DNA from: Mycolicibacterium phocaicum
Lineage (GTDB): Bacteria; Actinomycetota; Actinomycetes; Mycobacteriales; Mycobacteriaceae
DNA: 64,000 bases
NCBI RefSeq assembly: GCF_010731115.1
Contig: NZ_AP022616.1
Coordinates: forward strand, 372,001-436,000
Direction of reading: 5' to 3'
In this document: positions 24,604 to 29,859 of the stretch, piece after piece
Position numbering within the stretch: the stretch's first letter is position 1
Layout: each line of letters begins with the position of its first letter
Notes under the pieces: generated by a model
Told to the model about the DNA's origin: nothing
The model's input: the letters and a program-made list of their open reading frames with translations, nothing else
Database searches by the model: none
Program-made: the position numbers and the translations under genes

Positions 24604-25772
24604 GCGAAACCGAAGCACTGCAAGCCCGTTGGCAGGCGGTGATGACGAACAACTACGGCACGCCGCCCGTCGCTCTCGTCAGCGGCGACGGTGCCGTGGT
24701 CACCGACGCCGACGGCAAGAGCTACGTCGACTTCCTGGCCGGCATCGCGGTCAACGTGCTGGGCCACCGGCACCCCGCGGTGATCGAGGCCGTCACCACC
24801 CAGCTGAACACGCTGGGGCACACCTCGAATCTGTACGTCACAGAACCGGGGGTCGCACTGGCCGAAGCCCTCGTCGCGCAGTTGGGTGCCCCGGCCCGGG
24901 TGTTCTTCTGCAACTCCGGCGCCGAAGCCAACGAAGCCGCGTTCAAGATCACGAGGCTCACCGGACGTACCAAAATCGTTGCGGCGCAAGGAGCCTTCCA
25001 TGGCCGCACCATGGGGTCGCTGGCGCTGACGGGCCAGCCCGGCAAGCAGGAGCCGTTCCTGCCGCTGCCCGGTGATGTCACGCACGTGCCGTACGGCGAC
25101 GCTGAGGCCCTCGCAGCCGCCGTCACCGACGCGACCGCCGCGGTGTTCCTCGAACCGATCATGGGCGAGGGCGGCGTCGTCACCCCGCCCGCCGGCTACC
25201 TGGCCAAGGCGCGCGAGCTCACCACGAAACACGGTGCGCTACTGGTGCTCGACGAGGTGCAGACCGGCATCGGCCGGACCGGCGCCTTCTATGCCCACCA
25301 GCACGACGGCATCACGCCCGACGTCGTCACGCTGGCCAAGGGCCTCGGCGGCGGCCTGCCCATCGGCGCCTGCATCGCCATCGGTCCGGCAGCCGATCTA
25401 CTGCAGCCGGGCATGCACGGCAGCACCTTCGGCGGTAACCCGGTGTGCACCGCCGCGGGCCTGGCGGTCGTCAAGACCCTCGCCGACGACGACCTGGTGC
25501 ACCGGGCAGACGCCGCAGGCAAGACACTGGCGCACGGCATCGAGGCGCTGGGCCACCCGCTGGTCGACCACGTCCGGGGCCGCGGGCTCCTGCTCGGTGT
25601 CGTGCTGACCGCGCCGCAGGCCAAGGCCGTCGAAAACGCCGCGCGCACAGCCGCGACGACTGGATCATGCGCGCCAGTTCCGACCGGATCCGTTGAACGC
25701 CTTGAACGACTCGCGAGCAGGTCCTGCAAGCGCGTGTTGCTGATGCTGCTGACCAGGACTGGGCCTGGTTGA
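24600..25772 (+). CDS. argD: Acetylornithine aminotransferase, 3' end replaced
   Basis: This PLP enzyme converts N-acetylglutamate semialdehyde to N-acetylornithine. Residues 1 to about 350 are a normal Arg[44 protein letters not shown] and the PLP lysine in [15 protein letters not shown]. Homology stops after [11 protein letters not shown], around base 25653. The remaining 40 or so codons read antisense through mceF sequence ([16 protein letters not shown]...) and are not ArgD. The usual C-terminal 40-45 residues, including the VIRLAPPLIIT strand, are absent. If the sequence is correct, the protein would be damaged; if not, it marks an assembly join. Confidence 0.85.
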
Positions 25773-26197
25773 GCAGGTCCACGATGTCCTGGCCGACCGC
25801 GGTCCGGTCGACACCGATGGTGGCGCCGTTCTTCAGCATGTTCTTCGAGGTCGGCCGGCGGCACCAGATCGATGTACTGCTCACCGATCGCAGACACGCT
25901 CTGACCGTGGCCGTGACATTGTCCGGCACCGGGCTGTCGGTGTTCAGCCGCATCTGAGCCGTTACGCCGGTGTCGGTCAGACCGACGTTCATGACCCGGC
26001 CGATCGTCACGCCCCGATAGGTGACGTTGGCGTTCTGGCAGATGCCGCCGCCGACGACGAACTTGGCGTCCACGTTGTAGGCCCCAGGCCGACTGCTGCG
26101 GCAGGTGCAGGTAGGACGTCGTGATCAGGGCGAGGCAGATGACGGTGACGACACCGAAGATCGCCAGCTGGAAACGCGCAAGACGGGTCAACAACAT
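25655..26197 (-). pseudogene. mceF 5' part, frameshifted and truncated
   Basis: This is an Mce-family F protein fragment, the last MCE subunit of a lipid importer. It opens LLTRLARFQLAIFGVVTVIC, an uncleaved signal anchor. In a second frame it continues DAKFVVGGGICQNANVTYRG and VTIGRVMNVGLTDTGVTAQM, the start of the MCE domain, then switches frame again (AIGEQYIDLVPP). The homology runs out at ELARMIQSS where argD begins on the other strand. At least three frame changes occur. Its ATG overlaps the mceE stop, the usual mce operon arrangement. Confidence 0.8.
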
Positions 26198-27349
26198 TAC
26201 GGCTTCACCCCTCCATGTTGCGTCGCTGTGCCGGGCGGAACCTTGAACGGATCAGCGGCCTGTCCGGACAGGTTGGCCAGTGCGCCCAACAGGAAGTCCG
26301 GCGGGTTGATCACTTCGTCCAGGTGCCTCATGTTCGGGTCGAGACCCCCCGAGGTCGCAAAGAAGGTCTCACCGAGGCGGCGCAGCGTCAGGTCGAACGT
26401 CACGTACACGTTCAGGTAGTCACCGCGCACCGCGTTCTTGAAGTACTGTTGGAGAACGGGAACGTCGCCAGCAGATCCTGGTCGTGGATGAAGTCGTCGG
26501 CGTTGTCGTTGAGCGCTTTGATGACCGGAAAGAGGTCCCGAAGTCGGCCGCGAAGTCATCCTTGGTCGCGGCCATGACCTGGCACCGACGACCGCGAGCT
26601 TCCGCAGCGCGGTAAACGCATCCACGATGTTCTTGCGGTTGTCGTTGAGGACTCTGATCGCCCCGGCAGGGTGTCGAGCGTGCGGCCCAGGCCGTCCTTG
26701 CTCTGGCCAGGATCGAGGCGAAGCGGTTCAGCCCATCCATGGCCCCGATGATGTCGGTGGTCTGCTTTGTCCAGGGACTGGGTGAGCTCGGCCAGTGGGA
26801 TGAAGTCGACGAACTGCCCGGCCCGCGACGGCGGCATAGGCCTCATCGGTGATGTCCTGCAGCGCACCGAGATTGCCTTTGTTCACCACCAGGCCCAGCG
26901 ACGACAACACCTCTTCGGTGGTCGGGTACCGGCGGTGTGGGCCAGCGGAATCTCTGAGCCCTGCTTGAGCCATTCCTTGCGGCGCTTCCTCGACGGGTTC
27001 CGACAGCTGCACGTGCTGCGAGCCCAGCAGCGAGGTCTGGAGACCTTCGCCCGCGCGTTCGCCGGCAGCTTCACATCGCCGTTGATCGACAGTTTCACCG
27101 CGGCATAGAACGTGCCGTCAGGACGCTGGACCGCGTCCAGGCCCGACACGCTGCCGACGGTGACGTCGTTGACCATCACCGGCGAGTTCTGCGGCAACGT
27201 CGCGACGTCGGGCAACTGCACCGTGATGGTGTAGGAGCCGGCGCTGCCCTGGGTACCGGCATGTCCAGCGAGTTCAGGCCACCGAACTGGCAACCGGCGA
27301 GCACCACGGCACTCGACCCGATTGCCAGGACCTTCACAACCGCCCTCAT
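26197..27349 (-). pseudogene. mceE lipoprotein gene, multiple frameshifts
   Basis: The start encodes a lipoprotein signal peptide with lipobox VLAGCQFGG, as in MceE (LprK/LprN-type) proteins. Recognisable MceE pieces are then spread over three frames: YTITVQLPDVATLPQNSPVM, EEVLSSLGLVVNKGNLGALQ, QFVDFIPLAELTQSLDKAD and QQYFKNAVRGDYLNVYVTFD. I count about seven frame changes in 1.15 kb. The piecewise match in correct order shows a normal gene disturbed by many one- or two-base gaps, not old decay. The start overlaps the mceD stop (ATGA). Confidence 0.85.
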
Positions 27350-28745: not shown

Positions 28746-28775
28746 GGCGACTTCGGCCTCACGACGATCCGTTCA
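28742..28775 (-). pseudogene. Last codons of mceC
   Basis: Reading leftwards, the frame ends [10 protein letters not shown] and stops at a TGA overlapping the mceD ATGs, the usual mceC-mceD junction. Only about ten codons are present before the sequence turns into argH on the other strand near base 28776. This fixes the right-hand breakpoint. Confidence 0.5.
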
Positions 28776-28778
28776 GGT

Positions 28779-29859
28779 GACGATCTCGGTGGCCGGTTGC
28801 GTGCCGGCCGGTCCCGCAACGACCAGGTGGCCACGCTGTTCCGCATGTGGCTGCGCGACGCCAGACGTGGCGGCCGCGCTGGCCGGCCAGGCCGAGGCGC
28901 ACCCGACGGCGATCATGCCCGGCAAGACGCACCTGCAGTCGGCGCAGCCCGTGCTGTTGGCCCACCACCTGCTCGCGCACGCGCACCCGCTGCTGCGCGA
29001 CGCCGACCGGCTGCTGGATCTGGACAAGCGGGCGGCGGTGTCGCCTTACGGATCCGGTGCGCTCGCCGGTAGCTCGCTGGGCCTGAACCCCGATGCCATC
29101 GCCGCGGATCTGGGATTCCATGCGGCTGCGGACAATTCGATCGACGCCACGTCCGCGCGCGACTTCGCCGCCGAGGCGGCGTTCGTCTTCGCGATGATCG
29201 CAGTGGATCTGTCCCGGCTGTCGGAGGACATCATCCTCTGGAGCACAACGGAATTCGGCTACGTCAAGCTGCACGACTCCTGGTCGACCGGCAGCTCGAT
29301 CATGCCGCAGAAGAAGAATCCCGACATCGCCGAACTGGCGCGCGGCAAGTCCGGCCGCCTCATCGGCAACCTCGCCGGTCTGCTGGCGACGCTCAAGGCA
29401 CAGCCGCTGGCCTACAACCGGGATCTGCAGGAGGACAAGGAGCCGGTCTTCGACTCCGTCGCACAGCTCGAGCTGCTGCTGCCCGCGATGGCCGGACTGG
29501 TCGGCACCTTGACGTTCGACACCGACCGCATGGCGGCGCTTGCGCCGCTCGGCTACACGCTGGCCACCGACATCGCGGAATGGATGGTGCGCCAAGGTAT
29601 TCCGTTCCGCATCGCGCACGAGGCGGCCGGCGCGGCGGTCAAGGCCGCCGAGGCCAGGGGAGTCGGGCTGGAAGAACTCGCGGCCGACGAGCTCGCGGGT
29701 ATCCACCCGGGCCTGACCGCCGAGGTGCGGGACGTGCTGACCATCGCCGGTTCGGTCGACTCCCGTGATGCCCGCGGTGGCACGTCGCCGGCCCGGGTCG
29801 CCGAGCAGCTCACCATCGTTCGGGATCGGGCGGCGCACCTGCGGTCGCAGCTGGGGTAG
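28779..29859 (+). pseudogene. argH: Argininosuccinate lyase, 5' end missing and one frameshift
   Basis: The last arginine enzyme, which splits argininosuccinate into arginine and fumarate. Homology begins at [20 protein letters not shown], so about 110 N-terminal residues are absent. A frame change near 28860 (after FRMWLRDA) moves to the frame that continues [20 protein letters not shown] and runs intact to the stop. The fumarase-superfamily signature [11 protein letters not shown] is present. As written it has no proper start. It should follow argG in the operon; here it follows reversed mce sequence. Confidence 0.88.

Follow-up and report, generated by a model that had tools for sequence, protein, structure and literature searches.

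A misplaced, error-laden second copy of part of an mce operon in the arginine cluster of Mycolicibacterium phocaicum, very probably an assembly artefact

The arginine cluster and the segment that interrupts it

The window analysed here is a stretch of 64,000 nucleotides (bases 372,001-436,000) from a genome of 5,853,197 bp that is in one contig and is rated 100% complete. In this window, the arginine genes are interrupted by a reversed, frameshift-ridden piece of an mce operon at positions 25647-28776 (3130 bp). The features of the locus are:

21456..22505, plus strand: argC, intact (ORF; TIGR01850, 372 bits)
22391..23707 (ORF coordinates), plus strand: argJ, intact (NF003802, 445 bits; family match from residue 47)
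23545..24603 (ORF coordinates), plus strand: argB, intact (TIGR00761, 269 bits; match from residue 88)
24600..25646, plus strand: argD, truncated at the left junction (349 codons; NF002874, profile positions 5-354 of 399)
25647..28776, minus strand: misplaced, error-laden second copy of the mceC tail, mceD, mceE and the 5' part of mceF (98% identity to 4,610,507-4,613,689)
25647..26197, minus strand: 5' part of mceF in the insert, with 7 frame-changing clusters
26197..27349, minus strand: mceE in the insert, with 11 frame-changing clusters
27349..28745, minus strand: mceD in the insert, with 12 frame-changing clusters
28742..28776, minus strand: last 35 bp of mceC in the insert, by alignment to the intact copy
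28777..29859, plus strand: argH without its head; 26-nt loss near 28862-28866, the first ~90 bp being out of frame with the remainder

Just upstream of the arginine cluster, two neighbouring minus-strand ORFs at 18599-20686, alcohol-dehydrogenase-like and 342 aa each, appear by eye to form a tandem pair.

The initial annotation had placed the end of argD homology near 25653 and the start of argH homology near 28776, with the mceC tail, mceD, mceE and mceF on the opposite strand between them. The alignments bear out this layout: argD similarity extends to 25653, argH similarity begins at 28776, and the mce sequence aligns on the minus strand from 25647 to 28776. In source coordinates, the insert comprises the 35-bp tail of mceC, the whole of mceD and mceE, and 559 of the 1659 bp of mceF, that is, its 5' third. 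The ends of the insert fall within mceF and mceC, at no gene boundary, and all of it is mce sequence.

Both junctions are abrupt. On the left, argD remains in frame through 25646, and from 25647 onward the sequence matches the mce copy; similarity of argD to a relative reaches 25653, which leaves a 7-base overlap between argD and mce, with one of the seven bases differing from the relative. On the right, the mce match stops at 28776, where argH similarity starts. About 90 bp past this junction, argH lacks 26 nt in comparison with Mycolicibacterium sp. CBMA 234 and with a second relative (L046); a coarser table of argH alignments gives 26 gap columns in six of eight relatives and 28 in the other two. 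Since this lesion lies beyond the junction, poor sequence extends across it into argH. The remaining part of argH is 98% identical to a protein of Mycolicibacterium sp. TY66 and 96% identical to M. mucogenicum proteins (among the best 120 of 7999 matches), and the strain is therefore placed near that group.

The insert ends carry none of the marks of a mobile-element insertion that were sought there, namely a mobile element, a recombinase or matching end repeats. No repeat joins the two ends among the 20 of 23 direct-repeat families shown and the 12 inverted pairs. A phage origin was rejected, as megablast found no match in 50,697 phage records.

The intact source copy and the differences from it

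The initial annotation had proposed a search for an intact mce copy elsewhere in the genome, and one is present at 4,610,507-4,613,689 of the same contig. By blastn, 3113 of 3190 aligned columns are identical (98%), 67 are gapped and 10 are mismatches. The source frames of mceC, mceD (474 aa), mceE (389 aa) and mceF (552 aa) are open, and the last three encode MCE-family proteins by TIGR00996. The letters C to F were assigned by operon order; mceD matches chain D of entry 8fed at 2e-65, and chain F of that entry is named mce1f. A codon-usage frame scan of the source region (4.60-4.62 Mb) gives 11 frame switches, none of them away from a gene end. The source copy occupies its original place and has therefore undergone neither an inversion nor a cut-and-paste move; the genuine inversion that the initial annotation had kept in view is excluded. 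MCE-domain genes are numerous in this genome, with 41 PF02470 matches above the cut-off, 3 of which lie in the misplaced copy.

A global MAFFT alignment of the insert with its source resolves the differences into 36 clusters: 25 deletion-only, 8 mixed, 2 insertion-only and a single isolated substitution. Relative to the source, 58 bases are deleted and 5 inserted, and 20 of the 21 substituted columns in this alignment sit within mixed clusters. The reading frame is changed by 30 of the 36 clusters (12 in mceD, 11 in mceE and 7 in mceF), above the count of more than a dozen frame changes made from the sequence at the outset. Their earlier description as one- or two-base gaps holds for the most part: in 26 of the 36 clusters the net change is 1-2 bases, but the lesion in argH is a loss of 26 nt. 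Single-base deletions fall in runs of at least two equal bases in 15 of 17 cases, and 44% of source bases lie in such runs.

A duplicated gene under neutral decay is expected to accumulate mostly substitutions. In a natural pseudogene substitutions would exceed indels; here 35 of 36 clusters are indel-bearing or mixed. Read error is recognised by indels with few isolated substitutions, and this is the composition of the insert. Judged by the alignment, the indel-heavy spectrum fits uncorrected read error. The damage is uneven, with a longest error-free run of ~520 bp (probability 0.055 if errors were evenly scattered). Because error-free runs reach this length, the insert is partly corrected or its errors are clustered, and it is not raw uncorrected read throughout.

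The codon-usage scan extends the comparison to the rest of the genome. In its final form, trained on more sequence than the first, a switch is ascribed to a gene end if a fitting stop lies at most 75 bases away; the first form used 40 bases. Of the 16 direct same-strand switches that the final scan finds in the insert, 10 are not at a gene end; the 24 found elsewhere in the window are all at gene ends, in agreement with the earlier statement that genes elsewhere in the window are intact. The first scan gave 15 switches in the insert (13 not at a gene end) and 25 in the rest of the window (2 not at a gene end); under a stiffer switch penalty, these became 5, all away from gene ends, and 22, of which 2 were away. 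The scan is coarse, since the stiffer penalty leaves only 5 switches in the insert, and the alignment with its 30 frame-changing clusters is the better measure. The two first-scan switches outside the insert, at 5931 and 56294, were rejected as frameshifts, as they lie 45 and 61 bases from an ORF end. Twenty sampled stretches of the same genome (400 kb) hold 173 switches, 14 of them not at a gene end, with a maximum of 2 such switches per 3.13 kb; the remainder of the genome, where sampled, is without comparable damage. These 14 isolated switches are distributed as two each in three stretches (L160, L168 and L170) and the others in eight further stretches, and pseudogenes, single errors or noise of the scan may account for them.

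The missing arginine genes and the length of the lost stretch

In Mycolicibacterium sp. CBMA 234 (the nearest relative fetched), the stretch that matches the insert position contains the argD tail, argF, argR, argG and the argH head. These are the parts that the initial annotation had listed as missing, and they were not found in the present assembly, so that native sequence conserved in relatives is lacking here. Neither argG (PF00764) nor argR (PF02863) has a family match anywhere in the assembly. For argF, the sole PF02729 match in the assembly is pyrB; it was rejected as a second argF, as it scores 398 bits as an aspartate carbamoyltransferase (cut-off 263 bits) and falls below the cut-off of every ornithine carbamoyltransferase model listed. 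A match to argH above the cut-off occurs at the window locus only, without the head and with a short second piece adjoining; two weak matches elsewhere are below the cut-off. The argF-argR-argG DNA of the relative gives only 9 matches in the assembly, of 36-84 bp each. Relocation of the arginine genes within the assembly was rejected on the same grounds, namely no argG or argR family match and short DNA matches only.

Absence of argG is rare in the genus. The gene is present in 385 of 396 same-genus genomes, this one counted among them; the 11 without it are the present genome, the only one-contig case, and ten drafts of 100-1110 contigs. By a hand count of the same 396, the other one-contig genomes number 89, and all have argG. 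Some of the ten drafts (G015, G103, G257 and G365) are rated 97-100% complete, and a high rating alone therefore cannot exclude true loss in them.

The lost stretch had been estimated at about 3.1 kb, the same as the insert, and this estimate is confirmed. The insert measures 3130 bp; in 21 relatives the native stretch between the two junction points ranges from 3070 to 3283 bp, with a median of 3107, and 17 of the 21 are within 60 bp of the insert length. The sample consists of those of 24 same-genus relatives with both edges on one contig; the other three (G003, G005 and G015) have edges on separate contigs or one edge absent among the matches listed. A gap-closing step that works with an estimated gap size would be expected to choose filler of the right length, and the match is hard to explain otherwise.

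Origin of the insert and comparison with known systems

We consider it very probable, on these comparisons of sequence, that the insert is an assembly artefact of one kind or another and no real feature. The more specific account, in which a gap of approximately known size was wrongly filled, seems likely. According to this account, ~3.1 kb of real chromosome, from inside argD to inside argH, would have been represented by a gap whose size was roughly known. A stretch of the mce operon at 4.61 Mb, similar in length, would then have been placed there in reverse orientation. Poor correction would affect both this filler and the ~90 bp of argH next to it: short reads from mce may have mapped better to the intact copy, leaving the false copy uncorrected, and true reads from the arginine genes would have had no place to map. 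We infer a gap-filling or bridging step as the cause, and the living strain presumably carries an ordinary arginine cluster. A Mycobacterium xenopi genome built from nanopore-plus-Illumina data (PMC7171225) shows that such pipelines are in use in the field but does not concern the present genome.

Several lines of evidence support an artefact: an intact original elsewhere in the same assembly, differences dominated by deletions, the missing argF, argR and argG, the intact argC, argJ and argB, the equal length, and damage that continues into argH. They all favour the initial suggestion of mis-joined, low-quality reads filling a gap. Points against an artefact are the 21 substituted columns of the MAFFT alignment and the 10 blastn mismatches, the error-free runs of up to ~520 bp, the ratings of 97-100% for some argG-less genomes, and the 7-base overlap at the left junction, which is also what a join at micro-homology leaves.

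An artefact could have arisen by another route, in which one or more chimeric long reads carried the argD-mce and mce-argH joins into the assembly with no sized gap involved. Such reads would likewise yield a deletion-rich, poorly corrected segment with abrupt joins; however, two false joins are required and the matching length is left without a reason. We regard this route as rather unlikely, and the sized gap is preferred because the insert matches the lost stretch in length. A real duplicative replacement, in which a break in the arginine cluster was repaired by error-prone copying of 3.1 kb of the mce operon, would have made the strain auxotrophic for arginine and left it with a damaged copy of mce. 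It has a clear source, and the 7-base overlap could be micro-homology, but a spectrum of 30 frame-changing clusters and a single isolated substitution over 3.1 kb is not that of decay. The equal lengths would be without reason, argC, argJ and argB are intact though their pathway would be dead, argH is separately damaged outside the insert, and among the 396 genomes argG is otherwise absent from fragmented drafts only. Real duplicative replacement is very unlikely. The same small probability attaches to its most specific form, in which a deletion-prone polymerase repaired the break by using the mce operon as template over a long stretch, so that a natural auxotroph would preserve a record of error-prone repair in a 3.1-kb patch. 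Loss of arginine genes may be tolerable in rich medium, and this would favour a real change in the sequenced stock, such as a mixed culture or a loss of arginine genes in the laboratory, with the junction poorly sequenced. Yet all points against duplicative replacement apply here as well, the mce copy accounts for the entire insert, which brings no further element, and no repeat among the families shown pairs its two ends; a change in the stock is thus highly improbable.

Taken at face value, the record describes a strain that is unable to make arginine from ornithine, lacks ArgR and carries an mce pseudogene cluster. The implied auxotrophy is not credible without read support. If the insert is an artefact, pathway predictions, core-gene lists and mce copy counts drawn from this record would be wrong. 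A completeness rating, 100% in this case, can miss such a local loss.

Three known systems provide a frame for the locus. The mycobacterial argCJBDFRGH cluster is recognizable in the order of argC, argJ, argB and argD, with argH downstream; it differs here in that the argD tail, argF, argR, argG and the argH head were not found in the assembly. The mycobacterial mce operon (TIGR00996, Mtu_fam_mce; PF02470, MlaD) is represented by the intact copy, which matches TIGR00996 over mceD, mceE and mceF, whereas the copy in the window is a fragment in which no reading frame is intact. The closest likeness is to local mis-assembly or wrong gap filling in finished bacterial genomes, which shares a duplicate of an intact locus, uncorrected indels, missing native genes and abrupt joins. 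Unlike the usual cases, the filler here equals the lost stretch within natural variation, and the lost genes include argG, which every other one-contig genome in the set carries.
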